From Propioniciclava flava (GTDB lineage Bacteria > Actinomycetota > Actinomycetes > Propionibacteriales > Propionibacteriaceae), in assembly GCF_004126535.1 (NCBI RefSeq), contig NZ_PPCV01000003.1:248001-312000 (forward strand): DNA of 64,000 bases, written 5' to 3'. Below the pieces are notes generated by a model. It made no database searches. It had not been told where the DNA came from and saw only the letters and a list, made by a program, of their open reading frames with translations. Position numbers and translations under genes: made by a program. Positions 9,126-48,453 of this stretch are shown piece by piece. The first letter of the stretch is position 1; every line of letters starts with the position of its first letter.

Positions 9126-10988
9126 TCAGTCGAGCTGACGCCGTGCCGCGCCCTTGTCGGCGGACAGTGCCAGGGACGCGTAGATCTTCAGCGCATTGCT
9201 GACCACGCGCTCCCGATTGACGGGCTTCCAGCCGCGCTCGTCCTGCTCGGCTCGCCGCACCGCCAGCTCTTCATCGGTCAGTTCCACGTTGATGGAACGA
9301 TCCGGAATCGAGATCGAGATGATGTCGCCGTCGCGGATCAGGCCAATCGCGCCCCCCGCGGCCGCCTCCGGGCTGATGTGCCCCAACGACAGACCCGAGG
9401 AACCCCCCGAGAACCGGCCGTCGGTGATCAGCGCACATTTGGGCCCCAGCCCCACACCCTTGAGGTAGGAGGTGGGGTACAGCATCTCCTGCATGCCCGG
9501 GCCGCCCTTGGGGCCCTCGTATCGGACGACGACCACATCACCGGCGACGATCTTCCCGCCGAGGATCATCTCCACGGCCTCGTCTTGGCTTTCGGCGACC
9601 TTCGCCGGTCCCGAGAACACCCACTGATCCTCGGGGACGCCCGCCGTCTTCACGATGGCGCCGTCCACGGCGATGTTTCCCTTCAGCACTCCCAGGCCAC
9701 CATCGACGGTGTAGGCGTGCTCGGCGTCGCGGATGCACCCGCCAGCGGCGTCCAGGTCGAGGTCGGCCCAACGGTTCGTGGACGAGAACGCCACCGTGGT
9801 GCGGACGCCGCCCGGCGCCGCGAACCACAGGTCGGCGGACTCGGCGGTGGCGTGCCCGCCGCGGATGTCCCAGGCGTCCAGCCAGGCGTCCAGCGACGGC
9901 GCGTGCACCGCGTGGACGGACTCATCCAGCAGGCCGCCGCGGCGCAGTTCACCCAAAATGGCGGGCATGCCGCCCGCCCGGTGGACGTCTTCCATGTAGT
10001 AGTTGGTCGTGTTCGGCGCCACCTTGCACAGGCATGGGGTGGTGCGGGAGAGGGCGTCGATGTCGTCCATGGTGAAGTCGACCTCAGCCTCGCGGGCCGC
10101 CGCCAGGATGTGCAGCACGGTGTTCGTGGAGCCGCCCATCGCCACGTCCAGGCGCATCGCGTTGCTGAACGCCGCCTTGGTCGCAATCGAGCGAGGCAGG
10201 ACCGAGTCGTCGTCGTCCTCGTAGTAGCGCTTCGCCAGCCGGACGGCGAGGCGTCCGGCCTCTTCGAACAGGCCCTTCCGGGCGGACGCCGTCGCGAGCG
10301 TCGACCCGTTGCCCGGGAGCGACAGGCCCAGCGCCTCGGTGAGGCAGTTCATCGAGTTCGCGGTGAACATGCCCGAACACGAACCACACGTCGGGCACGC
10401 GTTCTGCTCGATCGCCATGATCTCTTCATCGTTGACCGAGGAGTCGACGGCCTTGACCATCGCGTCGATCAGATCCAGGCGCACCGAACCGCCCTCATCG
10501 GGAGCCCCCGACACGATCCGGTCGCCGAGCATCCGGCCCGCCTCCATGGGGCCGCCCGAGACGAACACGGTCGGGATGTTGAGCCGCAGCGCCGCGAGCA
10601 GCATGCCGGGGGTGATCTTGTCGCAGTTGCTGATGCAGATCAGCGCGTCGGCCTGGTGGGCGTTGACCATGTACTCCACCGAGTCGGCGATGACCTCGCG
10701 GCTCGGCAGCGAATACAGCATCCCCGAGTGACCCATGGCAATGCCGTCGTCGACGGCGATCGAGTTGAACTCCCGACCCACGCCGCCCGCTTCGGCGACC
10801 GCGCCCGCGACGAGCTGGCCCATGTCCTTGAGGTGGACGTGCCCAGGGACAAATTGGGTGAAGCTGTTGGCGATCGCGACGATCGGCTTCCCGAAGTCAC
10901 TCTCGGTCATCCCGGTGGCGCGCCACAGGGCGCGCGCACCGGCCATGTTGCGGCCGTGCGTGGTGGTGCGGGAGCGGAGCTGACCCAT
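9126..10988 (-). CDS. ilvD: Dihydroxy-acid dehydratase
   Basis: 620 residues, the usual length for the long IlvD form. It dehydrates 2,3-dihydroxy-isovalerate and 2,3-dihydroxy-3-methylvalerate to the 2-keto acids in valine and isoleucine synthesis, using an Fe-S cluster and Mg. Visible signatures are the start [20 protein letters not shown], the [11 protein letters not shown] motif (Cys122, Lys124) and [18 protein letters not shown] (Cys198, Cys201, Cys204). ATG 10988 has AGGAGG 5 nt upstream. Longer in-frame sequence upstream lacks a start signal and family similarity. No other ilv gene is nearby. Confidence 0.98.
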
Positions 10989-11055
10989 GAAAACCTCCTG
11001 GTGGTAACTCCCCCAGATTAGTCCGGACGCCGTCAGGCACGCAGATGCGTCCGGT

Positions 11056-11577
11056 CTAGTCGCGGCGTTTGGCGGGGCTGATCCAGATCGTGATGTCGCA
11101 GTGGACCGATTCCACACCTGCGGCGTCCACCAAGGAGACGGGCACGACAACCTCGACCCCGGAGGTGATCGTGGCGAAGTCGGGCAGCGGATCCACCGTG
11201 GCGGTCGCGGTCAGCCCTCCTGTCGTCTTGGCGAGGTAGCGAGCCTGCATCGCTTTGGGAATCCAGCGGTGCGTCGTGGGAACGGACGCCTCCGCGAGCA
11301 TCCCCATGGCGACCTCGGCGAGGTTGCAGGCGGCGATCGCGTGGAAGGTGCCGATGTGGTTGCGCATCCACCACCAGCGTGCCGCCGTGACGACGCAGCG
11401 GCCCGGCTCCAGCACGCGGACGTGTGGCAGCACCGTGACGAAGTAGGGGGCTTTGAGGGCTGCGGCCACCGAGAACAGCCGGGTGCCGAGCGGTCCGGGC
11501 AGCGCGGTCAGCCGCTGCCACAGCCGGTAGGTGTCGCGCCGATCCTCGTCGATCGGGCGTCTGCGGGTGCGTCCCAT
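11056..11577 (-). CDS. Hotdog-fold protein, DUF4442 type
   Basis: 173 residues with the hotdog features of DUF4442/PaaI-like proteins: the long helix region [20 protein letters not shown] and the following beta-rich half ([14 protein letters not shown]). Such proteins resemble acyl-CoA thioesterases, but a catalytic role is not established for this branch. The start is ATG 11577, with a -10 TAGCCT only 6 nt upstream, so the mRNA is probably leaderless. It diverges from serB across a 59-nt gap. Function is not determined by context. Confidence 0.75.
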
Positions 11578-18508: not shown

Positions 18509-19015
18509 ATGAGCATCCTGGTGATCACCGTGATCGGAACCGATCGCGCCGGCCTCGTGAGCGCCCTGGCGGGCGTCGTGGCCGACCATGGGGGCAACTG
18601 GACGCGCAGCCAGCTTGCCGAACTCGCGGGCGCGTTCGCGGGCATCGTCGTCGTGGAGGTCCCCGACGCCCACGTGGACGCCTTCACCGCCGACGCGCTG
18701 GCCATCGACGGCCTCGAGGTCGTCGTCCAAGGCGGCCACGAAGCAGAGGCTGCTCCCCGGCAGGTCACCCTCGAGGTGCTGGGCAACGATCGACCCGGCA
18801 TCGTGAAGGAAATCTCCCGGGTGGTGGCGCGTCACGGGTTGTCGATCCTGGAACTGACCACCGACACGCGCGAGGCCCCGATGACGGGCGGGCGACTCTT
18901 CGAGGCGCGACTCGTCGTCGAGGTCACGGATCCGGCCGACCTGGAGCGCGTCCACGACGATCTGGAGCAGATCGCCGCCGAGTTGATGGTGGACCTGTCG
19001 TGGGGTGAAGCGTGA
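18509..19015 (+). CDS. Tandem ACT-domain protein, GcvR-like regulator
   Basis: 168 residues made of two ACT domains: VITVIGTDRAGLVSALAGVV (residues ~5-24) and VTLEVLGNDRPGIVKEISRV (~91-110). Each has the GxDRxG turn typical of amino-acid-binding ACT modules. The layout matches GcvR, the glycine-cleavage regulator, and similar small actinobacterial proteins. The ligand is probably an amino acid. The stop overlaps the pirin start by 4 nt (GTGA). No gcv genes are in the window, so the target pathway is open. Confidence 0.85.
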   Translation: MSILVITVIGTDRAGLVSALAGVVADHGGNWTRSQLAELAGAFAGIVVVEVPDAHVDAFTADALAIDGLEVVVQGGHEAEAAPRQVTLEVLGNDRPGIVKEISRVVARHGLSILELTTDTREAPMTGGRLFEARLVVEVTDPADLERVHDDLEQIAAELMVDLSWGEA

Positions 19016-20192: not shown

Positions 20193-23100
20193 TCAACTGC
20201 GGGCGCGTAACCGTCCCTCCACCGCCTCCTGGCACGCGTCTACGGTCTCAGGTAGGAGGTCAATCCCCAGCGTGCGCGCGGTACGCGTCACGCTGTGCAC
20301 AAGCCGACGCACATCATCGGTACGGCCCGCCTGCTGCTCGGTCTTGATCCGCTCCACCATCAACAGTTCGTCCTCGGGGGCGGCCACGAGTGCTCGACTC
20401 GCCGCCCAGCGGGCCGTCTCCACGTCACCCACGGCGCGCGCCTTGCGCGCCGCGACGACACCGACATCCCGGATGAGCGCCCCCGCGTCCGCGCGCAACT
20501 CCTCCGCCCAGCCCCACTGTCCGGGCGCGGCGTCCGCCAAGGGGGCTCCCCGCACCATGCGCAGCGCCGCCAGCAAATGCTCCAGCCCAAGACCGTTCAC
20601 CCCGGGGGCAGTCAGCACAAGGAGGTCCCCCCAATCGGAGGAGACGTCATCGGCGAGTTGAATGCGTCCGGAGTAGGCGTCCGGCAAGAACAAGGACCCC
20701 TCGGGCCCGGCTCCGAGCCACGTGCGCAGCCGACTCATGTTCGAACGGCGCGTCCCCTCGGCAACCAGAAGCGCACGCCCCATCTGCTGCGGGGAAGAGC
20801 CCGGATGGAGGTGCAACCAGGCGCAGTACTCGACGCACTGCCGCAGCGCCCGAGTGGGCGCCTGCCCGGCGCATCCGGTCAGTTCGATCGGGCCAAGGAG
20901 GTGCAGGCGCGGGAGGTCCCCACACGCGCCGGTCTCGGGCTCCGGTGGGACTTGCGTCCCCCAGCGCACATCGGCTTCCTGACGTGCCCCGTCATTGCCG
21001 GGTCGCAGCGACACGATGTCCATGGGGTCCCCTTCTCGCCACCAGGGCGCAGGTTCTGTGACGGAAGTGGTGGCGAGGGCGAACAGGTCGGTGATCGCTT
21101 CTCGCGTGTCGGCGCTGATGGTTTGCGGTCGCACCGTCCGCTCCCCCACGTGGACGGCAGGGCAGGCGGGCGGTTCCACCGCCGCGTGAGGCGCACCCCC
21201 AGCCGTCACCTCGGGCGTCCAGTCAAGACGCCAGTCGGCAGCAGAACTACTCTCCTCCAGGCCGAGAACGGCCGCGATGCCGTCCTCCTGCCCATCGACA
21301 GCCGTCCGGACGCGTTCTTGTTCCGCTTCGCTCAGGGACCGCTCAAAGAGCCACACCTGGGGTGGCCAGATTCCCGCCAGGTCAGGGTCGAGATGCCGCT
21401 GCCGCCACGGACGCGCATCCTCCGCTGCCGCTCGCGCTGAGGCTGCGCCCTCTAGAGCACGCAGCGCTTCCGCGACATCGCTGTGCGCCGTGATCCGCGC
21501 CGACCCCGAGGCAGCGACGAAGGCGGGATCGTCGGTCATCACGTGCAGATCGAGTTCGTCAGCCCAGGGCGCGCACCCCAGTTCGATCAGCAGGGAGGAC
21601 AACACTTCGTCTCGGCCCTGCCCGGCTTCACACGCGATGGCGAGCACTCCCGACTCCAAGGCGTCGAGCATGACCACCCCGGATTGCCTGTCCCGCCCCA
21701 CCGTCACGAGGGCCGGGAAGGCGACCGGCCCATCACCGTCGGCGACCCCCGACAACGTTGCCCACGAGATCACCAGCGCCGTTCCGATGCGAGCGAACCC
21801 GTCCGGCGCCGAGGAGGGATCCTCAGTGAAGTCGAAAGTAACTCCCGTCTCGTCCAAGGTTGCCGATGCAAGGTTCCTGACCTCGCCGGGGGCCCCGCGC
21901 CAATGAGCCGCGATCTGGCGCATGGCTCGCGTCAGGAGGACGTCCTTTCGAGCGGACGCCACACCGCCAGGCAGGTTCGTGAGTGCCGCTGCGTCGCGCC
22001 GGATCACCGGCGCCGACGGATCGCCGCCTGCCCTCACAGCGGGCAGGGGCGCGGCCACAGCAGGCAGAGGCGCGGCGGCGACGTGCTCCAACGCCGTGGC
22101 ATACCGGCTGAGGTCCGCCCCCGGCTGCACGAATCGTCGACCAACCGGGCGCGACTGGCGCTGAAGGCGACGCGCCAGCGCCACACCACCCAGCACCGCA
22201 GCCGCCGAGATGGCCGTCAGCCCGCCAGCCAACTCCTGAGTTGAGGGAACACGGGAGACCTCGCTCGCGGCCGGCGTCACCGTCGCCGAGGGGGTCAGTG
22301 ACGGTGTTGTCTCGGCAGTGCCATCCGCCCCCGGGGTGGTCGCTGTGGCCTCACCTGTGGTGGATGCCGCGGCCTCACCTGTCGTGGGTGCTGCCCCCTC
22401 TCCTGACGTGGGCGACGACGTCTCCGTTGAGGGGGGCACTGCGGTCGTCTCGGAGGTGGGCGACGCGGGAGCTTCCGCGGTCTCAAGGCCCACTCCCTCA
22501 CGCCCCGACCCATCAGTCGTCTGCTGGACCGTTGGGCTCCAGGGCAGACGCAGGGTCCAGCCGATGTCGATCTCATCCGGGTCGTGGATCCGATCGGCGT
22601 TCAGGGCGCGGATTTCTGGCCATCGATGTGCATCACCCAAATGGCGCTGCGCCAGCTTCGACAGGGTGTCCCCGCGCTGCACCGTGATCAGCGTGACGGG
22701 ATCGGGGATCTCCAGATCGGTTCCGCTGACCAGTTCAGCGAGAGGATCTGCGCCCAGCACGGCGTTCGCGGCCGCGATCTGACGCCACTGCACGCCCTCT
22801 CCGTAGTACTGCTCAGCGAGACTCCACAGGTCATCACCCGCCACCACGCGGTGGACCACAGCCGGCTTAGCAACAGTCGGTTCCGCCGCCTGTAGCGAGC
22901 GTGACTGCGGTTCGGCTGTCACCGAAACCGCGGATGCCGGCGCCACAACTGGCGCTGCCTGCGCCGGAAGGTTCACCGCAGTGAAGGCAACCGTCAACAG
23001 GCCTGCGGCAAGGGCGCGCGGGAAGCCGAGGCCGACCAACCGAACGTGAGGCCGCCACCCTGAGAGCCGAATGACGACCTCGATGAGCACCGCCAAGCTC

Positions 23101-23279
23101 CACCATGCCCACGCCAGCCACGCAGCGGCCGTCATCACGAGCAAGGCAGGCCGGACGTCGGACAGGCTCCACACCGCTATTGCTGAGACATCGGTGAAGC
23201 CGAGCCTGAGGAGAGCAAGCGGCGGCCCCACCGCGAGAATCACCAAGGTGGCGACGGCCAGCAGTCGACGCATCATCAT
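20193..23279 (-). CDS. LysM and BTAD-domain membrane protein of the Tad locus
   Basis: 1028 residues. About three TM segments lie in residues 1-120, then two LysM modules (~137-187, VVHRVVAGDDLWSLAEQYYG; ~197-246, ITVQRGDTLSKLAQRHLGDA), a Thr/Ser/Pro-rich linker (~255-340), another TM segment (~346-370), a long cytoplasmic-like domain, and a C-terminal bacterial transcriptional activator domain (~793-1026) made of helical repeats. LysM binds peptidoglycan. BTAD usually follows an OmpR-type DNA-binding domain, which is weak or absent here. Similar proteins occur at the ends of actinobacterial tad operons. ATG 23279 overlaps the preceding stop by 4 nt. Role in pilus assembly or sensing is inferred. 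Confidence 0.82.
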   Translation of the reverse strand: MMMRRLLAVATLVILAVGPPLALLRLGFTDVSAIAVWSLSDVRPALLVMTAAAWLAWAWWSLAVLIEVVIRLSGWRPHVRLVGLGFPRALAAGLLTVAFTAVNLPAQAAPVVAPASAVSVTAEPQSRSLQAAEPTVAKPAVVHRVVAGDDLWSLAEQYYGEGVQWRQIAAANAVLGADPLAELVSGTDLEIPDPVTLITVQRGDTLSKLAQRHLGDAHRWPEIRALNADRIHDPDEIDIGWTLRLPWSPTVQQTTDGSGREGVGLETAEAPASPTSETTAVPPSTETSSPTSGEGAAPTTGEAAASTTGEATATTPGADGTAETTPSLTPSATVTPAASEVSRVPSTQELAGGLTAISAAAVLGGVALARRLQRQSRPVGRRFVQPGADLSRYATALEHVAAAPLPAVAAPLPAVRAGGDPSAPVIRRDAAALTNLPGGVASARKDVLLTRAMRQIAAHWRGAPGEVRNLASATLDETGVTFDFTEDPSSAPDGFARIGTALVISWATLSGVADGDGPVAFPALVTVGRDRQSGVVMLDALESGVLAIACEAGQGRDEVLSSLLIELGCAPWADELDLHVMTDDPAFVAASGSARITAHSDVAEALRALEGAASARAAAEDARPWRQRHLDPDLAGIWPPQVWLFERSLSEAEQERVRTAVDGQEDGIAAVLGLEESSSAADWRLDWTPEVTAGGAPHAAVEPPACPAVHVGERTVRPQTISADTREAITDLFALATTSVTEPAPWWREGDPMDIVSLRPGNDGARQEADVRWGTQVPPEPETGACGDLPRLHLLGPIELTGCAGQAPTRALRQCVEYCAWLHLHPGSSPQQMGRALLVAEGTRRSNMSRLRTWLGAGPEGSLFLPDAYSGRIQLADDVSSDWGDLLVLTAPGVNGLGLEHLLAALRMVRGAPLADAAPGQWGWAEELRADAGALIRDVGVVAARKARAVGDVETARWAASRALVAAPEDELLMVERIKTEQQAGRTDDVRRLVHSVTRTARTLGIDLLPETVDACQEAVEGRLRARS

Positions 23280-23767
23280 CGTCTCCCTCGAAAGCGGTCG
23301 AGCGTGGAGAAGGAATCGCCCTGGATCGGGATCTCGCCGGGGACTCCGGGTAACAGCAGATCCGCCACCGGCACGCGGCAGGTGACCGACGCACGGACCG
23401 CGCCTTCCTGTCCGAGTGGCGCGGCAAAGGCAGATACGTCCAGGCGGAGGTTCCAGGTGGGTCGGCACCGGACCCCTGAGGCGCGGGCGTCCCCCTCCAG
23501 GACGGTCTGTGCCTGGGATCTCGCTGAGCTGGCGTCCCGAGCTAAGGAAGCCGTTCGTGCGGCAGAATCGGCCCACTGACGCACCGCGATCTGTGTCGTG
23601 GCCAGCCGTCCGGCGAACAGCATCAGCCCGGCGACCAACAGCAGCGCCGGCACCATGATCGCGAATTCGACCGTTGCGGCGCCTCCGTCGCCTGTCCGAC
23701 ACCCGACCCGTCGGGTAACCGGGCGCAGGCGCGCCCGTCCAGCGACGAACTCATGCCTCACCGTCAT
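23276..23767 (-). CDS. TadE-family pseudopilin-like protein
   Basis: 163 residues. The family motif is GAATVEFAIMVPALLLVAGL, with Glu at +5 of the presumed processing region, then a periplasmic/extracellular domain with two Cys (Cys100 region and ASVTCRVPV). TadE proteins are minor pilins needed for Flp pilus assembly. The start overlaps the preceding gene's stop by 4 nt, and its own stop overlaps the next start, so the order is tightly coupled. Confidence 0.88.
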   Translation of the reverse strand: MTVRHEFVAGRARLRPVTRRVGCRTGDGGAATVEFAIMVPALLLVAGLMLFAGRLATTQIAVRQWADSAARTASLARDASSARSQAQTVLEGDARASGVRCRPTWNLRLDVSAFAAPLGQEGAVRASVTCRVPVADLLLPGVPGEIPIQGDSFSTLDRFRGRR

Positions 23768-24135
23768 GGTTGGGTCACGCGCTCTTTGGGTCGGGTCGCC
23801 TGGTGGCTCACCGCAGTTTGGCCTAGGTCAACGAACGTGGGCATCGTTCCGCGCACCGTCACGCTCACGGCGGTGGGGCTCGCCGTGAGATGGACGTCGA
23901 CGCCCATCAGCCCTCCCGCAGCGGCGACACGGTTCGCCGTAGCCTTCGCGTCATCAACCGTTGCGTCGGCAAGGGCTCCGCGCTCCGCGCCCGCGATCGC
24001 GGCGTTCGTGGCGACTGTTGTGCCGTGCGCCCAGAGCCCGACCTGGAGGATCCCGAAGACTGTCAGCAGGATCACCGGCAAGAGGATCGCCCACTGCACC
24101 GAATCGGTGATCCCCCGCTCGCTGCGGCTGGTCAT
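23764..24135 (-). CDS. TadE-like minor pilin protein
   Basis: 123 residues with the opening RSERGITDSVQWAILLPVIL, an N-terminal TM segment positioned as in TadE, and a helical region (TNAAIAGAERGALADATVDD) that is a hallmark of TadE-like proteins. The canonical Glu of the TadE motif is replaced by Asp/Ser-Val-Gln. It probably acts as a second minor pilin alongside the next gene. The start overlaps the stop of the pilin-like gene by 4 nt. Confidence 0.8.
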   Translation of the reverse strand: MTSRSERGITDSVQWAILLPVILLTVFGILQVGLWAHGTTVATNAAIAGAERGALADATVDDAKATANRVAAAGGLMGVDVHLTASPTAVSVTVRGTMPTFVDLGQTAVSHQATRPKERVTQP

Positions 24136-24335
24136 CCGGGGATGGTGGCGAGCTTGTTGTGGACCAACGCCGTCACCACTCCCACGATCGCGAGCGCAAC
24201 CGCTGCGGCGCAGGCCAGCAGGATGGCCTGTTCGGTCGACTGCGAGACGCCGCGCTCCCCACGACGATGCGCCTGCCCGTCGGTGGGCAGGAGCAGCAAA
24301 GCGAAGCTGAGAAGACGGTAGAAGGAAAGGGTCAT
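24132..24335 (-). CDS. Small Flp-pilin-like membrane protein
   Basis: 67 residues, the size of Flp pilins. An N-terminal leader (TLSFYRLLSFALLLL) and Arg-rich stretch (HRRGERGVSQSTEQ) precede a single TM segment (AILLACAAAVALAIVGVVTA) ending in HNKLATIPG. Flp pilins have a Gly/Glu-containing cleavage region, a TM helix and a short C-terminal tail, as here. AAGGAG lies 7 nt before ATG 24335. Position between tadC and the TadE genes supports it being the main pilin, but the unusual hydrophobic leader leaves some doubt. Confidence 0.7.
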   Translation of the reverse strand: MTLSFYRLLSFALLLLPTDGQAHRRGERGVSQSTEQAILLACAAAVALAIVGVVTALVHNKLATIPG

Positions 24336-24361: not shown

Positions 24362-25240
24362 TCAACCGCTGGTCGCGAGTGTGAGCAGCGGGGGTACGAG
24401 GAAGAAGAGCCCCAAAACGAGGCTGGGAAGGACCATCCACACAGTCATCCGCTCCGACAACTGCGTGGCAGCCACCTTGGCTTGCGTGAGGTGCGCATCA
24501 CGCAACTCACGGACACGCGCGCGCAGTGTCCGTGCCAACGAGGCGCCCGCCTCATCGAGGCGCATGACATCAACGAGGTCGGCGAGCGCGGGTAGTTCTA
24601 GTTCGCGTGACAATCGGGTGAGATCCGCGTAGGGAGCACGTTGCTCGAGCCTGGCCCGTTCCAACACCAAACGAATCGAGCGGAACAGGGGGGCATCGGA
24701 GAGATCTGCTGCGGCGTGCAAGGACTGGATCGCCGAGCGGTTTGCCAGCCGCTCCAACGTCACCAGATCGAAGTAGGTGAGCAGAGCTTCACCGGCGTCG
24801 TCGCTGATGCCTCGTCCGGCTCGACGCAACGCCACGTCCGGCAACAGGTAGCCGGCGACCACTCCCACGGGAGCGAGAAGGGCAGGCAGTGCAGGGGGAG
24901 CATCGGCCAGGAGCCACAGCAGTGCCCCCACCAGCATGGGGAGCAGAAGCCCGACGAGCGCTCCCACCACCTTCAGGCTGTAGTGCGTGCTCACAGAACG
25001 CCCGCTGAGCAGGAGTTGACGCTCGCGCACCGGATCAACGGCTACACGCCGCACGCGCATCCACCAGGCGCCTGCGCGATCCAGGCCTTCGGGCTCGGTG
25101 GTGGTCGCCGCGGCAGGTCGGACCTCGAGCGCCGACAGTGCATCAGCCAGGCGTGCATGCTGAGGCCTGAATGCCATGACGCAGATGACCAGGCCTAAGG
25201 CGATGAGGGCACCGGGCAAGACCGCGATGAGCGTCGTCAT
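24362..25240 (-). CDS. tadC: TadC-like type II secretion F-domain membrane protein
   Basis: 292 residues. N-terminal TM, a pair of TM segments near the middle (LVGLLLPMLVGALLWLL; ALLAPVGVVAGYLLPDVAL) and a C-terminal TM around the T2SSF domain (residues ~150-270; LLTYFDLVTLERLANRSAIQ, LVDVMRLDEAGASLARTLRA). TadC partners TadB as the inner-membrane platform of the Tad pilus machine. The start overlaps the tadB stop by 4 nt. Confidence 0.9.
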   Translation of the reverse strand: MTTLIAVLPGALIALGLVICVMAFRPQHARLADALSALEVRPAAATTTEPEGLDRAGAWWMRVRRVAVDPVRERQLLLSGRSVSTHYSLKVVGALVGLLLPMLVGALLWLLADAPPALPALLAPVGVVAGYLLPDVALRRAGRGISDDAGEALLTYFDLVTLERLANRSAIQSLHAAADLSDAPLFRSIRLVLERARLEQRAPYADLTRLSRELELPALADLVDVMRLDEAGASLARTLRARVRELRDAHLTQAKVAATQLSERMTVWMVLPSLVLGLFFLVPPLLTLATSG

Positions 25241-26097
25241 GCTTGACTCCGCAGAATGCGCGCCCGGTGACGCGGGATGGTCATGCGTTTGAGTTGCAGC
25301 AGGGAACCCGCATACAAGGCGACGAGCGCAATCAGCACCGCTTGCCCCGTGGGTGTGCCGTAGGGACGAAAGAAGTCACGCCCGAACACGAGGGCCGCCC
25401 CCAAGACCACCACGGTAATCAGCGTGACTTGGCGGACGACGTAGCGCGGCTTTGCTCGTTCCGCCTCGATCTCGCGCATCACCTTGAGGCGCTCCTGAAT
25501 CGAATCGGCCAAGGCAGCCAGCGTTGTCACAGCACCTTGCCCCCCGCGCTGAGTTGCCAGGATCAAGCTGGCCAAGACGGCGTCCGCGTCAGGTGAGTCG
25601 AGTTCGTCGGCCATGCGCAGGAACGCTGCGGGGGCCGACCAGCGGTCGTCGAGCCGTTGCACCATGCGGATGAGGGTGTCTTTCAAGCGTTCGGGCGGGT
25701 TCCGAGCGCTGGCCCGCACCGCGTCCGCGATCGAACGACCGGCTCCCATGGTGGCAGCCAGCCCCCGCACCCACCGATCCAACGATTCCAGCAACTCGAT
25801 GTCGCGCGCGGGGGGAGCGCGCAGCAAGGCAGGGATCCCGATCACCGCGACGGGCATGATGACCACCATCACCGGCCACCCGGTCCACAAGGCCGCCCCT
25901 CCCGCCAATACGACCGCGACGAGCAGGAAGACCCATGTTCGGGGGTTCGTCCCCCGGAGTTTGTCCACAGCTCTTGTCCACAGACCTGTGGATGAGTGAG
26001 CTGCCGGAGCTTGGGTCAGAGCCCCCGCACCGACGGCGAAGAGGACAACCACGCCTGCGACGGCGAGGCAGGCCCCCAGAACTCCCCAGATGATCAT
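25237..26097 (-). CDS. tadB: TadB-like type II secretion F-domain membrane protein
   Basis: 286 residues. Two N-terminal TM regions, the T2SSF domain (LESLDRWVRGLAATMGAGRS, then RMADELDSPDADAVLASLIL) and C-terminal TM segments. It forms the inner-membrane platform with TadC. ATG 26097 is chosen because it overlaps the tadA stop by 4 nt, like every other junction in the operon; ATG 26118 is an alternative. The region 25950-26010 encodes LWTRAVDKLRGTNPRTW between TM segments. Confidence 0.9.
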   Translation of the reverse strand: MIIWGVLGACLAVAGVVVLFAVGAGALTQAPAAHSSTGLWTRAVDKLRGTNPRTWVFLLVAVVLAGGAALWTGWPVMVVIMPVAVIGIPALLRAPPARDIELLESLDRWVRGLAATMGAGRSIADAVRASARNPPERLKDTLIRMVQRLDDRWSAPAAFLRMADELDSPDADAVLASLILATQRGGQGAVTTLAALADSIQERLKVMREIEAERAKPRYVVRQVTLITVVVLGAALVFGRDFFRPYGTPTGQAVLIALVALYAGSLLQLKRMTIPRHRARILRSQA

Positions 26098-27506
26098 CGC
26101 GCCCGCCAATCGGACCAAAAGGGCTCAAGTTCGGCCCACAGGCGGGTCTCGGGGTGGACGGCCGCGTCCTCACCGGCGCGGTAGACCATGTGTGTCACCG
26201 GACGGTCGTTCTCCAAAGCCCCCGTCAGGGCAGCCACTTCAGCGACGGCTCGCGTCCGGATTCCACCACGCCACGTGTCGTCTTGGAGACGCACGTAGAC
26301 GATCAACGCCACATGGTGCGCGATCTGTCGGTACGCCTCGGCCATGCTGATCACGCCACCTTGGGCCACACGCGAGGCGAGTCGATCGATCGTGGACTCA
26401 GCCGAGTGCGAGTGCGTCGTGCTCATCGTGCCAGCACCGGACTGCATCGCCTCGAACATGGCGCCCGCTTCCGCGCCTCTGACCTCGCCGACGATGAGCC
26501 GCGAGAGATTCTGTCGCAGAGCTTCCGGGATGAGTTCGGCGATCGTGAACTCACCCACGTGACGCCCGTCCGCCACTTCGCCGAGCCCAACGCGAGCCTG
26601 GAGCGCGAGAATGTTGCGACGCCCTGGCTGTAAGTGGGTGAGGAGTTCGTAATCGGTCTCCAACGTGCCGAACCGCTCGTTGTCGGGGATGGAGGCGATG
26701 AGCGCTCGCAGCAGCGTGGTCTTGCCCGCGCCCTGATCCCCGGCCACCACGAGGGACTTACGCCCCAGCACCGCCGCGTGCAGTAGGCGGCCAACATCCT
26801 CTGGCATCATCTGCGCGTCAACCAGATCAGGGAGCGTGACGCTGGTGAGGATGTGCTGGCGGATGGTGATGGAAGGTCGATAGGAGAGCCCGAATCCAAT
26901 GGCATGGAGGCGGTGCGAGTCGCCCAGGGCCACCGTCATGGTGGGATGGGCGTCATCAAAGGGGCGCGGTGGCGTGACCGATTCGCCGAGGAAGCGGACC
27001 GCCTCCACCAGTTCCTCATCGCTATCGGCCACGGGAGCCAGCGCCTCACGATGTCCATCGCCATATTGGGCGACGACGCTGTCGAAACCGTGGATCTCCA
27101 CATTCTCTGCGCCGGGGAGCGTGAACAGCGGTTGCATGCGGCCGAACCCGAAGATCGCGTCCTCGAGGGCTGAGGTGTAGCGCTGCTCACGATCGACCGT
27201 CCACAGATCGCCGAGTTGGCTGCGTTCCTCCGCATGTTCGCGGACGACGCGCCTCAGCACCGCTCGCGCCATGAGCCGTCGATCGGCGTCCCCTAGGGGC
27301 ATCCCCGTGCGTTCCGCATGCGCCTGGGCGGCCTGGGCCACCTCATCGGAAGCGCGGCGGCGCAAAGTGACGACAAGGCCCCAATCCACATCATCGCGGC
27401 TCGGGCTTTCCGCAACCCGCCGAGCGGGGGGCACAGCGACCGCGAAATCGGGACGTTCCTGTAGCAGTGGGACGTCCGCCAAGCGCCGCAGCGAGGTGTC
27501 ACTCAT
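26094..27506 (-). CDS. tadA: TadA/CpaF pilus-assembly ATPase
   Basis: 470 residues. The N-terminal domain is followed by the secretion-ATPase core: Walker A GDQGAGKTT (Lys262), Asp box with LETDYELLTHL, Walker B LIVGEVRGAEA, and His box MSTTHSHSAESTIDRLASRV. It forms the cytoplasmic hexamer powering Flp pilus extension. The start overlaps the tadZ stop and the stop overlaps the tadB start, both by 4 nt. Confidence 0.96.
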   Translation of the reverse strand: MSDTSLRRLADVPLLQERPDFAVAVPPARRVAESPSRDDVDWGLVVTLRRRASDEVAQAAQAHAERTGMPLGDADRRLMARAVLRRVVREHAEERSQLGDLWTVDREQRYTSALEDAIFGFGRMQPLFTLPGAENVEIHGFDSVVAQYGDGHREALAPVADSDEELVEAVRFLGESVTPPRPFDDAHPTMTVALGDSHRLHAIGFGLSYRPSITIRQHILTSVTLPDLVDAQMMPEDVGRLLHAAVLGRKSLVVAGDQGAGKTTLLRALIASIPDNERFGTLETDYELLTHLQPGRRNILALQARVGLGEVADGRHVGEFTIAELIPEALRQNLSRLIVGEVRGAEAGAMFEAMQSGAGTMSTTHSHSAESTIDRLASRVAQGGVISMAEAYRQIAHHVALIVYVRLQDDTWRGGIRTRAVAEVAALTGALENDRPVTHMVYRAGEDAAVHPETRLWAELEPFWSDWRAR

Positions 27507-28273
27507 GAGGCGACCGCCTGATCCCGACGCGCAAGGTGGCCGAAAAGGGCTTCCGCGGCCCTATCCACACTGACCGCGAACGCTGAGCGCGACCAACGAC
27601 GCCCCAATCCCCCAGGGCCTGCGTGAAGCTCGTCCGCTGCTACGGGATCCCACGCAATCTCGGCCAGGACCGGAACACCGAATTGTTCGGCGACCTCGTC
27701 AGCGGCATAGGGGCGCCGGGGGCCCACCAGGACGAGACCCGTGGCCCCCACTTTGGCGATCGCTGCCAGTGCAGCCAGGTGGGGCCGAAGCCCCGACAAG
27801 GCGATTAACGATGTTCGACACACCAGGACCACAAGGTCTGCTTCGCGCACGAGCGGATCGGGCAATCCCCGGTGCCCGGTGCGACCGGCGTCGATGATGA
27901 TGTCCGCCTCGACATTCATCTCAAACGCGTCCAGCAGCGGTGGCCACACCGGATCGAACAGGTCGATGGCTCCCAGATGGGTGAAGCCGGTCAGGAGCGC
28001 CCGCGGAGCCTCGTCCCCAGGAAGCGGGGGCAGCGGACGCACGATCGCTTTCAGTGCCTCGGGCAGCGCACTACGCTCCCGGTGCGCCTGCAGAATCGCT
28101 TCCAGCCCGGCTCCGGCTGCCTGCCCGTGTAGGTAGCCCGCCATGACCGTCGGAGTGGCAGCACGATCGGCGTCCACCAGCACGGATGCTCTCGGCCACG
28201 CCAAGGTCAGCCCCAGTGCGCTCGTCGTCACCCCTGGCGCACCGCTCGCACTGGTCAGCACGATGGAACTCAT
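27503..28273 (-). CDS. TadZ/CpaE-like P-loop-fold protein with a degenerate nucleotide site
   Basis: 256 residues with MinD/ParA-type fold features: an N-terminal strand-loop (VLTSASGAPGVTTSALGLTL), VLVDADRAATPTV, and IIIDAGRTGHRGLPDPLVRE, followed by LVVLVCRTS. In MinD-like proteins the loop is KGGxGKTT. Here both the deviant signature Lys and the Walker Lys are absent (SGAPGVTTS). TadZ/CpaE positions the Tad machine at a pole or focus, and known TadZ proteins can be atypical ATPases. Its position before tadA supports the assignment. ATP hydrolysis is doubtful. Confidence 0.78.
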   Translation of the reverse strand: MSSIVLTSASGAPGVTTSALGLTLAWPRASVLVDADRAATPTVMAGYLHGQAAGAGLEAILQAHRERSALPEALKAIVRPLPPLPGDEAPRALLTGFTHLGAIDLFDPVWPPLLDAFEMNVEADIIIDAGRTGHRGLPDPLVREADLVVLVCRTSLIALSGLRPHLAALAAIAKVGATGLVLVGPRRPYAADEVAEQFGVPVLAEIAWDPVAADELHAGPGGLGRRWSRSAFAVSVDRAAEALFGHLARRDQAVAS

Positions 28274-28893
28274 CGCGTTCCCCCTTGCTGGATGAGGGAG
28301 ATCCGCTCGGCGGCCGCCAGTCGCGTGACCATTTCTGCTTGATCGAGGGGCACGAAGAGGTCGAAGACCAGCGAGCCGTCCGGCTGGGGTGTGGGTGCGA
28401 TCACGAGGGTGGCTGGCACAGTTCCGGGCAGCTTTCCCTCCGCACCCGAGTCGGCCAGCGCCACGACGCTCACTGGCGTGCCTGGACGCAGATCACCGAC
28501 CGGGAATCGGCCCTGGGCGAGCCGCGCACCGACGCGGGCCATCCCCACCGGTTGCGTCGCGTCCGACCAACTCCCCTCGACGAGCAACCCACCAGCGGGC
28601 AGGTCGGTGACGGCCGCTCGGCCGGCGACCTCGCCGATGCGGGAGTCGGCGACGGAGCGAACGTCAACACCTGAGCCCACATGCACGACCGAAAAGTCAG
28701 TGGGGGCCAGGATCTCACCCCGGTAGACGGTCCGATTCACGCGCAGAACCGGTGTTGATTCCACTGCGCTGAGGTAGGCAAAGGCGGACAGCAACCCGCC
28801 TAGGCAGACCGCGACGATACCGAATGCCAACCAGCTGGGGCTGCGCCGCAGCCTCATGAGGGGGCGCGCCGGTGGAGTTTCCTGAGTCGCCAT
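28270..28893 (-). CDS. SAF-domain protein, CpaB/RcpC-like, first gene of the Tad operon
   Basis: 207 residues. A single N-terminal TM (WLAFGIVAVCLGGLLSAFAY) is followed by a SAF domain (VYRGEILAPTDFSVVHV, GRAAVTDLPAGGLLVEG). CpaB/RcpC proteins belong to the pilus base and, in diderms, assemble with the secretin; in a monoderm the domain probably contacts the cell wall. It begins the nine-gene minus-strand run. A TAAAGT hexamer on the minus strand (28935-28940) is a candidate -10; AGGA lies ~10 nt before ATG 28893. Confidence 0.82.
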   Translation of the reverse strand: MATQETPPARPLMRLRRSPSWLAFGIVAVCLGGLLSAFAYLSAVESTPVLRVNRTVYRGEILAPTDFSVVHVGSGVDVRSVADSRIGEVAGRAAVTDLPAGGLLVEGSWSDATQPVGMARVGARLAQGRFPVGDLRPGTPVSVVALADSGAEGKLPGTVPATLVIAPTPQPDGSLVFDLFVPLDQAEMVTRLAAAERISLIQQGGTR

Positions 28894-29221
28894 GGGGGGT
28901 GGTCCTCATCGTTGTCCGGGGGTGAACGATGCAGACTTTAGGGAACTCTTGGGTAATGGCGCCAGTTGTCACCACCCCGTCTGTGGACAACCGCTGTCGA
29001 CCGCACAAAGCCTGTGGAAGCCGACGACGCTAAACAGCGATTCCCCTGCCCAAAAAGCTGAGAATTCTGAGGCTTTCTCCACGTCGCTGAGCCCGGCGGT
29101 AGCGGGCCGAGAAGGCCATTCGCCAGGCCCGCGCCAGGATGCTCGACACGACAGTCCCACCCTGCGAACACTCGGCGATAGCGCTCGCGTCAACCACTTG
29201 CGGGTAACTATGCTCACGCGC
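28894..29221. other. Intergenic region between the Tad operon and the carbohydrate transporter, with an imperfect palindrome
   Basis: No gene is supported here. On the minus strand TAAAGT (28935-28940) may be the Tad-operon -10. An imperfect palindrome, AAAGC-TG-AGAATTCT-GAG-GCTTT (29054-29076), is built round the perfect 8-mer AGAATTCT and could be an operator for the downstream sugar transporter. AACTAT (29206-29211), 10 nt before ATG 29222, may be its -10. Confidence 0.4.
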
Positions 29222-30496
29222 ATGACACTCTCGCGACGCACCCTGTTCACCGTCGGTGGTGGGCTCACGGCAACCGCAGCCCTCACCGCGTGCGGCTCCA
29301 ACACCGGTCGGTCCGCCGCCCCCAGCGCAGGCGCCTCTGGTGCGCGGCCCACCCTCGCGAGTTGGTACCACAAGTACGGCGAGGACGGCGTGGAAGCTGC
29401 GCTGAAGAAGTGGGCCAGTGAGTACACCAGCGCCACGATTGACGTGAACGTCGTGGCCGCTGACTACGAGAGGGCCCTTTCTGCCGCCCTGCTGACCCCG
29501 ACCGCTCCCGACGTCTTCGAGTACGCCAATGGCCCCACACTGGACATGATCAAAGCGGGGCAGGTGGCCGACGTCACCGACGCTGTCGGCGCCGCTCGTT
29601 CCCAGTTCACCCCGACGGTTTTGGCGCGGATGACCTACCAGGACAAGATCTGGGCCGTCCCGCAAACGGTCGACATGCAACTTCTCTATTATCGAAAGTC
29701 TGTGCTGGCCGCGAAAGGTCTGCAACCTCCGTCGACACTCGAAGAGCTCACGCATGTGGCGAACAGCGTCGCCACCCCGGAAATGGGCGGCTTCTTCGCG
29801 GGTCAAGATGGCGGCGTCGGCGTCCTGGGGCTGCTCTTGATCTGGGCGGCTGGATTGTCCGAGCTCAACCCCGCCAACACGGCAGCAACGTTCAACGATC
29901 CCGCCTTGTATGCGTCGGTCGCCCAATACAAAACGCTGTTCGACTCGCCCGGTATGGTGAAATCTGCCTCCGCCGACTGGTCGGACGCCTCGCCCTTCAT
30001 CAATGGCGAAACCGCCCTGCAATGGGGCGGGCTCTGGGACCTGACGAAGGTTCTGGCCGCACATGGCGACGATGTCGGCGTGCTCCCCTTCCCCGCGGCG
30101 GGAACAGGCGGCACGAAGGTCGTCCCCTTCGGGGCGTTCAGCGCCTGCGTTTCCGCGCAAAGCGCGAATCTCACGGTCGCCAAGAACTACGTGAAGTGGC
30201 TGTGGGTCGATTCCGACGATCGCCAGGTCGAGTTCAGCAACGCTTTCGGCGTCCACCTGCCCGCCAAGCCCGCCCTCCTGCCGCGAGCCACGAAAGTAGC
30301 GGCAGGGCCTGGTCAGGATGCCGCCTCGTTCGTGACCGATTTTGGACGCGCCAACGCCCTATTTTGGACGTCCGCTTCCGGGGACGCCTATGCGACCGCC
30401 TTGTCGAACGTCGTGAAGAACGGCGCCGACCCGGCGACCGAGTTCGGTGCAGCCGCCTCCAAGGTGAACGCCGAACTCGCCCGCGTCAACGACTAG
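29222..30496 (+). CDS. Carbohydrate ABC transporter substrate-binding lipoprotein
   Basis: 424 residues. The N-terminus combines a twin-arginine motif (SRRTLF), a hydrophobic core and a lipobox (LTAC, Cys ~23), so it is probably Tat-exported and lipid-anchored. The mature part is an extracellular solute-binding protein family 1 fold (LASWYHKYGEDGVEAALKKW; VPQTVDMQLLYYRKSVL; WGGLWDLTKVLAAHGDDVGV). This family binds oligosaccharides or glycerol-phosphate-like ligands. ATG 29222 is chosen; ATG 29210 would add four residues. The two permease genes follow directly. The ligand is not evident. Confidence 0.9.
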   Translation: MTLSRRTLFTVGGGLTATAALTACGSNTGRSAAPSAGASGARPTLASWYHKYGEDGVEAALKKWASEYTSATIDVNVVAADYERALSAALLTPTAPDVFEYANGPTLDMIKAGQVADVTDAVGAARSQFTPTVLARMTYQDKIWAVPQTVDMQLLYYRKSVLAAKGLQPPSTLEELTHVANSVATPEMGGFFAGQDGGVGVLGLLLIWAAGLSELNPANTAATFNDPALYASVAQYKTLFDSPGMVKSASADWSDASPFINGETALQWGGLWDLTKVLAAHGDDVGVLPFPAAGTGGTKVVPFGAFSACVSAQSANLTVAKNYVKWLWVDSDDRQVEFSNAFGVHLPAKPALLPRATKVAAGPGQDAASFVTDFGRANALFWTSASGDAYATALSNVVKNGADPATEFGAAASKVNAELARVND

Positions 30497-30498
30497 GG

Positions 30499-31413
30499 AT
30501 GCGTCACTCACACGCGGGTTCCTCGCTGGCCCGCGGTAACCGGCGCTGGTTTTGGGTGTTCGTCACTCCGTTCCTCGCTGGACTGATCGTGTTCGTCTAC
30601 GTGCCGATGCTGTGGAGTCTGTGGCTGTCGTTGTTCGACGCGCGCAACACCGTCACCCCCACGTCGTTCGTCGGGCTCAGCAACTACGCGTACCTGCTGG
30701 GCGATCGGATGTTTCAGCAGTCGCTGGTCACCTTCGTGCTCTTCGCGCTGTTCATCGTTCCTTTGACGTTCGCGTGTTCGCTAGGCCTCGCGCTGCTCTT
30801 GCAGCGCATCACGGTGGCCCGCGCGTTTTTCCGCTCGGTGTTCTTCCTCCCGACCGCCGTCAGTTATGTCATCGCGTCGATGGTGTGGCGGATGTCCTTC
30901 TTCAACGGGGCCCGTTTCGGCTTGGCCAACACGCTGCTCAGCGCGTTCGGCCTCGCGCCCGTGAACTGGCTGGGCGGGGAGAACACCTGGTATTGGTTCG
31001 TGCTCGTGACGCTGCGGCTGTGGCTTCAGGTCGGCTTCTACATGATCTTGTTCATCGCCGGGCTGAACCGGATCGATCCGGAACTCTATGAGGCTGCCGA
31101 ACTGGACGGGGCGGGCGCCTGGGCGCGGTTCCGGTTCGTCACCTGGCCGCTCTTGCGTCCGACGTCGGTGGCGGTGTCCATGCTGCTGGCCTTCAACGCG
31201 TTCCAGGCCTTCGACGAGTTCTACAACACCCTCACCACCGCGAGCGGCTATCCGCCTTATGCCCGGCCTCCCCTGGTGTACCTGTATCTGGTGACGTTCG
31301 GTTCCGGCAGTCAGGATCTCGGCATCGGCTCGGCCGGAACCATGATCGTGACCCTGGTCATCGTGGCGTTCTCGCTCCTGCAGAACCGTTTGCTCGCGAT
31401 CGGCAGCCGCTGA
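30499..31413 (+). CDS. Carbohydrate ABC transporter permease, MalF/UgpA type
   Basis: 304 residues with six TM segments and the cytoplasmic EAA loop EAAELDGAGAWARFRFVTWP, which contacts the ATPase. The first TM follows a short N-terminus, as in UgpA-like permeases. It starts 2 nt after the binding-protein stop and its own stop overlaps the next start (TGATG). An ATPase would be needed; none of the MalK/MsmK type is encoded nearby. Confidence 0.93.
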   Translation: MRHSHAGSSLARGNRRWFWVFVTPFLAGLIVFVYVPMLWSLWLSLFDARNTVTPTSFVGLSNYAYLLGDRMFQQSLVTFVLFALFIVPLTFACSLGLALLLQRITVARAFFRSVFFLPTAVSYVIASMVWRMSFFNGARFGLANTLLSAFGLAPVNWLGGENTWYWFVLVTLRLWLQVGFYMILFIAGLNRIDPELYEAAELDGAGAWARFRFVTWPLLRPTSVAVSMLLAFNAFQAFDEFYNTLTTASGYPPYARPPLVYLYLVTFGSGSQDLGIGSAGTMIVTLVIVAFSLLQNRLLAIGSR

Positions 31414-32240
31414 TGAACCGTCGACCCCGCGCTCACGTGGGCGCCTACCTGGCGGCCTCACTGCTCGCCGTCGTTTTCCTGCTGCCCTTCTATGTCATCG
31501 CCCGCAACGCGTTTTCCACGCAGCAGGCCGTCGTGGCGCCCGTATGGCGCTGGTGGCCGGACGCCCTCAACGGGGCCACCGTGACGGCCGTGCTCGGGGA
31601 TCCGAGTCTGGGGATCCTGCCCGCCTTGGTCACGTCCCTGGTGGTGTCCACCGTGCAGACTGCCGCCACCCTCGTCATCTCGCTGATGGCCGGATACGCG
31701 CTGGCGCGCTGGAGCACGACGGCGTCCCGCATCATCCTCGGGATGACGGTGTTCACGTTGATGGTTCCCGCCATGGTGACGTTCATTCCCACCTTCGTCA
31801 TGGTCAGTTCGCTGGGCTGGATCAGCACCTATCGCGGGTTGATCGTGCCCGTGGTGTTCTCGGCGTTCGCGACGTTCCTGTTCCGGCAGGGGTTCGTTGA
31901 CTTCCCCCAGGAGTTGGAGGAGGCCGCCGCGCTGGATGGGGCCAACACCTGGACGACGCTGTGGCGGATCGTCGTCCCCAACGCGGGCAGCAGCATTGCT
32001 GCGGTCGGCACCATCACGTTCATCGGCGCCTGGAACGCGTTCCTGTGGCCGCTGCTCATCGCCCAAGACCCGCAGTTGCGCACCATTCAGGTGGTGCTGA
32101 GCCAGTTCATGACCAGTCAGGGCACCCGCTACCCGGAAATGTTCACCGGCGCCCTCATCGGGATCATTCCCGTCTTGCTGGTGTTCTTGTTCCTGCAGCG
32201 GTGGCTCGTCCAGGGAGTTGAGGCATCGGGTCTGCGCTAG
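31413..32240 (+). CDS. Carbohydrate ABC transporter permease, MalG/UgpE type
   Basis: 275 residues, six TM segments, EAA loop LEEAAALDGANTWTTLWRIV. The C-terminus (FLFLQRWLVQGVEASGLR) is close to that of UgpE/MalG proteins, where it ends in a Gly-containing tail. Together with the preceding permease and lipoprotein it forms the membrane complex. There is a one-base start/stop overlap with the preceding gene. Confidence 0.93.
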   Translation: MNRRPRAHVGAYLAASLLAVVFLLPFYVIARNAFSTQQAVVAPVWRWWPDALNGATVTAVLGDPSLGILPALVTSLVVSTVQTAATLVISLMAGYALARWSTTASRIILGMTVFTLMVPAMVTFIPTFVMVSSLGWISTYRGLIVPVVFSAFATFLFRQGFVDFPQELEEAAALDGANTWTTLWRIVVPNAGSSIAAVGTITFIGAWNAFLWPLLIAQDPQLRTIQVVLSQFMTSQGTRYPEMFTGALIGIIPVLLVFLFLQRWLVQGVEASGLR

Positions 32241-48130: not shown

Positions 48131-48453
48131 GCCTGTTCTCCCTCGTGATCACGGTCTGATCGGATCGACTGGACCCACAGTGGACCCAGGCATCGCCAAG
48201 ACGACGACTACCCAACGATACGCGGACGCGTCCCCATCGAGCAAACCGGAGCGTTCACAGGTGGCAAGTCGAGCCGACACGCCGGTCGCTCGTCGATTCG
48301 ATCCTCGCCATTTGCCGGTCGTCACGACACAGGACTAGCGTGGCTCCCCACGACATGGCACCGCCAGCCGCCGTCGTCGTGTACGTTGTCCACACCTGTG
48401 GATGACGATTGTGGACACGTCGTCCCCAAAACCGGCGTATTGAGGAGAGTGTG
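48131..48453. other. rpmH-dnaA divergent intergenic region with DnaA boxes and a dnaA promoter
   Basis: Three DnaA-box-like 9-mers cluster at 48386-48394 (TTGTCCACA, perfect), 48398-48406 (minus, TCATCCACA) and 48410-48418 (minus, GTGTCCACA), just upstream of dnaA. TTGCCG (48312-48317) and TAGCGT (48336-48341), with an 18-bp spacer, form a plausible dnaA promoter. The boxes lie downstream of it, fitting DnaA autorepression. Confidence 0.6.

Follow-up and report, generated by a model that had tools for sequence, protein, structure and literature searches.

A LysM protein at the end of the Tad operon of Propioniciclava flava carries a predicted SARP module and may be a membrane-bound regulator

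We analyzed a 64,000-nt window of the genome of Propioniciclava flava (3.0 Mb in 26 contigs), in which a Tad pilus operon ends with the gene of a 1028-residue membrane protein, here called LysM-SARP. Residues about 790-1022 of this protein are, by profile comparison and predicted fold, a complete SARP module, an OmpR-type winged helix followed by a BTAD domain. The module stands behind an FtsK/EccC-type fold lacking the Walker A motif and a membrane-spanning region with two LysM modules. We propose that LysM-SARP is a peptidoglycan-tethered, membrane-bound transcription factor, a reading that we consider evenly poised between right and wrong. The bounds given for the open reading frame (ORF) in a preliminary description, 20193-23279, were recovered, and the gene lies on the minus strand (23279..20193). 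Its parts, with transmembrane abbreviated as TM and the basis of each in parentheses, are as follows.

20193..23279, minus strand: LysM - TM - pseudo-FtsK/EccC - SARP membrane protein (1028-aa ORF)
22959..23264, minus strand: three predicted N-terminal TM helices, residues about 6-107 (hydropathy)
22542..22856, minus strand: two LysM modules, residues about 142-246, predicted outside (Pfam LysM)
22236..22532, minus strand: Thr/Ala/Ser/Pro-rich linker, residues 250-348 (composition)
22176..22232, minus strand: predicted fourth TM helix, residues 350-368, then a K/R-rich stretch (hydropathy)
21045..21962, minus strand: predicted FtsK/EccC-type ATPase fold without Walker A, residues about 440-745 (AlphaFold and structure comparison)
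20601..20912, minus strand: OmpR-type winged helix of the SARP module, residues about 790-893 (profile-profile comparison and Foldseek)
20712-20753, minus strand: recognition helix, residues 843-856 (within the winged helix)
20214..20600, minus strand: BTAD half, seven-helix and TPR-like, residues about 894-1022 (AlphaFold, Foldseek and profile-profile comparison)

The preliminary description recognized a C-terminal BTAD-like domain and found the DNA-binding domain that normally accompanies it not evident. Profile and fold agree on the BTAD-like domain, but an OmpR-type winged helix sits directly before it. When a profile of ten C-terminal domains (A5) was compared in hhalign with SARP segments (12 segments from 11 loci of the same genome family, two of them partial), the match had a probability of 99.4% (E 1.6e-21) over 229 columns spanning both winged helix and BTAD. 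The control pairs A5-TadA, TadA-SARP and middle domain-SARP gave 0.1-0.4%. An AlphaFold model of residues 780-1028, built from an alignment of eight sequences, reached a pLDDT of 63 overall and was confident for the TPR-like helices only. The top two Foldseek matches of this model were EmbR (2fez, E 2e-4) and AfsR (8k60, E 7e-4), over 226-259 columns. VIA-align returned general TPR proteins only (Z 11.3-13.3, residues ~99-249 of the model); EmbR and AfsR were not among its 50 rows, in which the winged-helix half was barely probed.

The BTAD half was found despite the lack of a Pfam BTAD match in the window protein even at E≤10, and at E≤0.001 nothing in the P. flava genome matched PF03704. Among homologues, L009 (40.4 bits) and L010 (33.3 bits) exceeded the Pfam BTAD cut-off of 22.1, with L012 (21.2 bits) just below it, and the family was matched by 3 of the 11 members of alignment A1 at E≤1 and by 2 of the 8 members of alignment A2 at E≤10. 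We treat this model as a detection tool only, the module grouping with SARPs by predicted fold and by profile. Searches of Pfam, NCBIfam and PDB sequences with the whole protein returned LysM and LysM-like matches only; in PDB profile searches, alignment A2 gave eight weak, unrelated matches and alignment A3 none.

In the structure of AfsR on DNA, recognition-helix residues R87, T88, S91, R92, R94 and K95 are described as contacting DNA in the available part of the report (PMC10936776). Our alignment of the helix motif gave R845, S846, S849, R850, R852 and T853 as their equivalents. We examined these positions in 97 members with distinct C-terminal domains, made up of 54 Propionibacteriaceae, 14 plasmid and 27 other-class sequences and 2 from a second cluster type. 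R845, S849, R850 and R852 were identical in all 54 Propionibacteriaceae, and S846, which stands for T88, in 53 of them. R852 was kept in 97 of 97 members, and R845 was mostly N in the plasmid and other-class members. Among 26 full-length family sequences, mean information in the recognition helix was 3.96 of 4.32 bits, the highest of twelve segments. The other eleven had 1.26-3.10 bits, the upper value being that of the winged helix, which includes the recognition helix; BTAD had 2.87, the basic stretch after TM4 2.77, LysM1 2.54, LysM2 2.34, the middle domain 1.64 and the linker 1.26. The most constrained segment compared is therefore the one that would read DNA.

Hydropathy placed TM1 at residues ~6-24, TM2 at ~48-70, TM3 at ~86-107 and TM4 at 350-368, in agreement with the earlier claim of TM segments before the LysM modules and another after the linker. 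In an alignment of 11 homologues, TM2 was predicted in all 11, TM1 in 10 (the L004 sequence used begins at a late start), and TM3 and TM4 in 10 each. Six K/R residues lie within the 15 residues directly after TM4, and the C-terminus is predicted inside. With hydropathy and the positive-inside rule, nearly all 11 homologues are predicted to have both termini in the cytoplasm and the LysM modules outside. Residues 534-552 were borderline over the hydropathy threshold, and further middle-domain stretches in homologues also passed it; we dropped these as TM candidates because they fall within the predicted globular fold.

LysM was the only Pfam family above its cut-off in the protein (55.9 bits over two stretches; cut-off 20.9), which places the protein in the LysM family and agrees with the two modules first described; it matched all 11 members of A1. 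The linker is likewise present. It had been called Thr/Pro-rich, but its 99 residues include 24 T, 16 A, 13 S and 11 P (65% T+P+S+A), and it is therefore Thr/Ala/Ser-rich more than Thr/Pro-rich. As to function, the preliminary description had suggested a sensor that couples peptidoglycan outside to a cytoplasmic output domain of unspecified kind. Since LysM lies outside and the C-terminal module inside by prediction, we still infer a coupling across the membrane; the output domain is no longer unspecified, being a complete SARP module that follows a pseudo-ATPase.

Residues ~440-745, within the stretch 370-790 for which a domain search had been suggested earlier, have a predicted FtsK/EccC-type ATPase fold without a P-loop that had been missed. 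The AlphaFold model of residues 385-786, from six sequences, had a mean pLDDT of 65.7. Foldseek matched it to FtsK motor domains, TcpA, EssC and EccC (best E 2.6e-7, TM-score 0.40). In VIA-align, rows 1-29 were FtsK, TcpA, EssC, EccC or ESX complexes (Z 14.4-10.1), five of them titled just 'ATPase', and RecA-like proteins began at Z 9.5. Individual matches included 6t8o_D (Z 14.4, root-mean-square deviation (rmsd) 7.8, 247 residues aligned), 2ius_A (Z 14.2, rmsd 3.7, 220 aligned) and EccCb1-D2 in 9jv8 (Z 13.2, rmsd 3.4, 211 aligned). In hhalign the domain gave 86% with EccC (E 4.9e-6) and a weak 7% with FtsK; for reference, the true pair EccC-FtsK gave 99.6%, and EccC-TadA, which share the P-loop alone, 82%. 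With the FtsK profile weak and the EccC value close to that of a pair sharing only the P-loop, the fold call therefore rests mainly on structure comparison. None of the 93 members that have ≥480 residues ahead of the SARP module contained a Walker A motif (G/A-x4-GK[S/T]). The middle domain is therefore probably not an ATPase, and the natural reading of motif and model together is that of a dead ATPase fold.

The gene was also described as the last of a Tad set, joined by a 4-nt overlap to a TadE gene. Both points hold: its start codon and the stop codon of the tadE before it overlap in ATGA, and cpaB-tadZ-tadA-tadB-tadC-flp-tadE-tadE all lie upstream in the same direction.

23276..23767, minus strand: second tadE-like minor pilin, 4-nt overlap with the LysM-SARP gene (Pfam TadE, 32 bits)
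23764..24135, minus strand: first tadE-like minor pilin (Pfam TadE, 36.3 bits)
24132..24335, minus strand: small Flp-like pilin gene, 67 aa from an inner ATG (position and sequence; no Pfam match above cut-off)
24362..25240, minus strand: tadC, T2SSF (Pfam, 24.2 bits, slightly below the cut-off of 25.2)
25237..26118, minus strand: tadB, T2SSF (Pfam, 42.2 bits)
26094..27506, minus strand: tadA ATPase (Pfam T2SSE, 74.8 bits)
27503..28273, minus strand: tadZ-like gene (position, kept in family regions; no Pfam match above cut-off)
28270..28893, minus strand: cpaB/rcpC, SAF (Pfam SAF, 22.0 bits)

Beside the locus, an ACT-domain protein gene (Pfam) adjoins at 18509-19015 on the plus strand, and plus-strand ORFs at 29180-32240 resemble an ABC sugar-transport set by eye; the first of these had no Pfam match at E≤0.01.

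Tad genes lay upstream, with the LysM gene the last one recognized, in 28 of 32 chromosomal regions from family genomes; among these 28, flp and tadE precede cpaB in L080, and tadE was not recognized in L068 and L090. The four others were L077, which ends at a contig edge, the orphan LysM-SARP genes of L083 and L085, and L074, where a SARP stands alone. In the plasmid loci Tad genes were upstream in 13 of 14, four with additional genes between, and absent from L021. The arrangement is not due to chance, because it recurs in so many chromosomal and plasmid regions. Of the seven first loci, L001, L002 and L004 had Tad genes, L005 and L007 had none (the stretch upstream of the gene in L007 is <4 kb), and L003 and L006 were cut. 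The best named relatives found were those of Propioniciclava sinopodophylli (L001) and a Propionibacteriaceae metagenome-assembled genome (L002), both with 46% identity over the best segment.

The gene does not always stand beside Tad, as the orphans L005, L007, L083 and L085 and the bare SARP of L074 demonstrate. That SARP, in a genome of one 2.0-Mb contig (G012), is a free-standing 250-aa ORF at 10359-11111 (plus strand) of its locus, with its own GTG start, a Shine-Dalgarno-like GGAAGGA and a BTAD score of 17.9 bits, below the cut-off. It is flanked by a same-strand gene for formate-tetrahydrofolate ligase and an opposite-strand MFS gene; no Tad genes lie beside it, and the best TadA of the genome (E 1.9e-29) is not a strong one. 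In six further genomes (G021, G043, G060, G089, G023 and G075) the best TadA was divergent and on another contig than LysM-SARP, and the divergent-TadA stretches fetched from them, of which L151 and L154 end at contig edges, contained no SARP module of ≥60 bits. Since LysM-SARP is retained in genomes with no adjoining Tad operon and the SARP occurs once alone, the protein is not simply a part of Tad assembly; it accompanies Tad by habit, not by necessity. Several family genomes have another Tad operon type, a divergent one (loci L150-L155), after which we noted by eye similar-looking ORFs of 870 aa in L152 (4443-7055) and 853 aa in L153 (4100-6661).

Retention across the family is nearly complete. 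The C-terminal alignment A2 matched 95 of 97 family genomes at E≤1e-5, mostly with one strong match each; G002 (a 53-aa fragment) and G092 had weak matches only, and the search found none in G010 (71% complete) or G032. A TadA of ≥500 bits was listed in 74 of the 97. Class-wide, at least 117 of 296 genomes matched at E≤1e-6, a lower bound with nine candidates scored per genome. In PLSDB, 170 plasmid records matched the window protein and 230 matched the Streptomyces homologue L009, some through LysM alone; no homologue of the window protein was found in viral_contigs. Relatives are named in databases either 'LysM peptidoglycan-binding domain-containing protein' or 'BTAD domain-containing putative transcriptional regulator'.

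We also found a short element, TTRTCCACA, which we take to be the DnaA box sequence, in front of the operon and at related loci.

28982..28990, minus strand: DnaA-box-like TTGTCCACA upstream of the Tad operon/cpaB (motif TTRTCCACA)
28935..28940, minus strand: -10-like TAAAGT, 41 bp downstream of the box (sequence)
25961-25969 and 25974-25982, plus strand: further TTRTCCACA sites within tadB (exact motif)
L005 9430-9469, L007 3886-3924 and L083 8082-8121: twin CTGTGGATAA boxes directly upstream of orphan LysM-SARP genes

An exact box was present within 320 bp upstream of cpaB in 16 of 26 loci and lacking in the other 10. Upstream of cpaB there were 22 sites in 8.84 kb, whereas the other 457 kb of these loci contained 29; the reversed motif gave 0 and 1. 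The whole P. flava genome has 14 exact sites in 3.0 Mb against 11 in the backward control, so it is the placing of the boxes and not their number that counts; three of the 14 belong to the region of the tad operon and two lie on either side of dnaA (48386 and 50040). TANNNT followed a same-strand box (≤1 mismatch) at 38-42 bp in 12 of 25 loci, compared with 2.1% of positions; this interval was picked post hoc, after the sequences had been inspected. L001 and L064 are the same organism; L001 was included in the 26-locus count, and both were excluded from the 25-locus count.

Three orphans, L005, L007 and L083, have two exact opposite-strand boxes 30-31 bp apart just upstream of the LysM-SARP start, the sole exact boxes in these loci; orphan locus L085 has no exact box. 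The L083 locus also contains parB. No exact box was found in the eight plasmid loci, of which one has a one-mismatch site and two have only ~360 bp of upstream sequence. At least one pair of TTRTCCACA 15-45 bp apart (start to start) occurred in 56 of the 97 family genomes, many of which have pairs in several places; the backward control gave 0. Pfam confirmed dnaA (start 48454, plus strand) and dnaN at 48386-51552 of the window. TTGTCCACA lies 68 bp before dnaA and another copy between dnaA and dnaN; this region is probably oriC, ~20 kb from the Tad operon. We considered TTRTCCACA as a site of the SARP itself and dropped the idea, given that the same 9-mer flanks dnaA, that plasmid loci lack an exact box and that pairs recur in 56 of the 97 genomes. 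DnaA would be the simpler binder, as predicted from the sequence of the element, and control by DnaA is therefore the simple reading.

If LysM-SARP is a membrane-bound transcription factor, it might work as follows. The two LysM modules would grip the cell wall outside, and the four TM helices would leave the last ~650 residues of the chain in the cytoplasm. Strain or crowding could pass through the TM bundle and linker to the pseudo-ATPase, whose dead FtsK/EccC-type fold would function in relay, in oligomerisation or in docking, with TadA/TadZ as possible partners. The SARP module would then bind promoter DNA at the membrane and recruit sigma factor/RNA polymerase, and pilus and envelope genes would be switched according to the state of the wall or of pilus assembly. 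We further suggest, as a possibility on the doubtful side, that such proteins form an unnamed wall-to-genome class in Actinomycetes (LysM, dead FtsK/EccC relay, SARP), near-universal in Propionibacteriaceae, in which a promoter with a DnaA box ~40 bp before the -10 joins replication state with wall or pilus state in one regulator.

Several observations weigh against a transcription factor. The position of AfsR K95 is not conserved (T853; the residue varies), and neither, in Propionibacteriaceae, is a tryptophan at 838, taken as AfsR W74, with W in 26 of 27 other-class sequences. The winged-helix half of the AlphaFold model had pLDDT mostly <50, and the Foldseek matches to EmbR and AfsR had TM-scores of 0.46-0.54 with rmsd 6.8-10.2. 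Most copies of the gene share an operon with structural pilus genes; G032 has neither SARP nor a strong TadA, and G010 has a strong TadA without SARP. Between box and -10 we saw by eye no SARP-type direct repeat conserved between species, no dedicated repeat search having been run.

Some of these points would suit the main rival, a FimV/HubP-like landmark or assembly hub, in which LysM pins the protein to the wall, the FtsK-like and TPR-like parts dock TadZ/TadA and position or stabilise the pilus machine, and the winged helix is either vestigial or serves to bind protein. The frequency of Tad genes upstream and the joint absence of SARP and strong TadA from G032 are as a hub would predict. 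To our knowledge, FimV and HubP have neither an FtsK-like fold nor a DNA-binding domain. They do share the order LysM, TM, cytoplasmic TPR, according to the part of PMC12918733 available. A hub does not explain why the recognition helix is conserved above the other segments compared, why G012 has the SARP alone or why orphans lack adjoining Tad genes; moreover, the Flp pili of Micrococcus luteus are described as made from tad clusters without such a gene, in the accessible part of PMC4322843. We judge a hub to be rather unlikely.

Two other explanations take the FtsK-like fold as their starting point. FtsK, the best fold match, carries a gamma winged helix, and its plan of TM segments, low-complexity linker, motor-like fold and winged helix parallels that of LysM-SARP. 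The boldest alternative is accordingly a tether from wall to DNA, with a dead motor, in which the winged helix would anchor specific sequences of the chromosome or a plasmid to the envelope, for positioning and not transcription. The 170 plasmid records and the place of the locus ~20 kb from dnaA (48454) would fit, but BTAD is a transcription-activation module in known SARPs, as far as the available text of PMC10936776 goes, and the Tad operon of several one-contig genomes is far from the contig ends (a contig position, not one relative to oriC). We find a tether improbable. Less probable still would be a structural or substrate-recognition subunit in a machine for DNA transfer or secretion derived from Tad, its EccC/TcpA-like fold binding cargo signals and its SARP the transferred DNA. 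The closest fold matches include the conjugation coupling protein TcpA and EccC/EssC, and many carriers are plasmids. Against such a machine stand the missing Walker A, the near-universal presence in Propionibacteriaceae genomes and the PLSDB typing of the 230 L009-matching records, 182 of them non-mobilizable, 45 mobilizable and 3 conjugative.

SARPs have so far been studied as soluble activators of antibiotic clusters. If the proposal of a membrane-bound transcription factor is true, a membrane-tethered SARP would connect peptidoglycan or pilus assembly directly to transcription in Actinomycetes and would provide a regulator for actinomycete Tad pili. The pseudo-FtsK/EccC domain would be a further example of an ATPase fold that has taken on a regulatory role. 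A family annotated mostly as 'LysM peptidoglycan-binding domain-containing protein', with more than 100 plasmid records, some from skin commensals, would gain a testable function.

One member of this family has been recorded before. PAGK_2369 of the Cutibacterium acnes plasmid pIMPLE-HL096PA1 (homologue L008; 27% identity to the window protein) was tabulated in 2013 as 'LysM, BTAD' and named a TadB homologue (Table 2, PMC3666418), and the pairing was therefore already known. Like the PLSDB homologues, it ends a Tad locus with LysM and BTAD. The available part of PMC3666418 mentions no winged helix, pseudo-ATPase or topology for it. Beyond that paper, our searches of the open-access literature brought up, judging by listings, no apparent study of the protein and no account of the winged helix, pseudo-ATPase, decoupling from Tad, family-wide retention or box; most subscription journals fall outside this coverage.

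The closest known systems each share a part of the protein. AfsR of S. coelicolor and EmbR of M. tuberculosis, which are soluble proteins, have the same OmpR-type winged helix and seven-helix BTAD within ~230 residues, and most of the DNA contacts of the AfsR recognition helix are retained in LysM-SARP. In AfsR the SARP part is N-terminal and followed by NOD and TPR, according to the available part of PMC10936776, whereas here it is C-terminal on a four-TM LysM protein. The FtsK, EccC, EssC and TcpA ATPases share the predicted fold of the middle domain, which lacks their Walker A motif. The polar landmark proteins FimV and HubP, likened by description, have LysM outside, a TM segment and a cytoplasmic C-terminal TPR-like domain in the part of PMC12918733 available. 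In some species they are linked to pili. ToxR and CadC are membrane-bound one-component regulators with a winged-helix activator tethered to the membrane and a sensor outside; in contrast to LysM-SARP, their winged helix is N-terminal, in reverse order, with a single TM segment and neither LysM nor a BTAD half.

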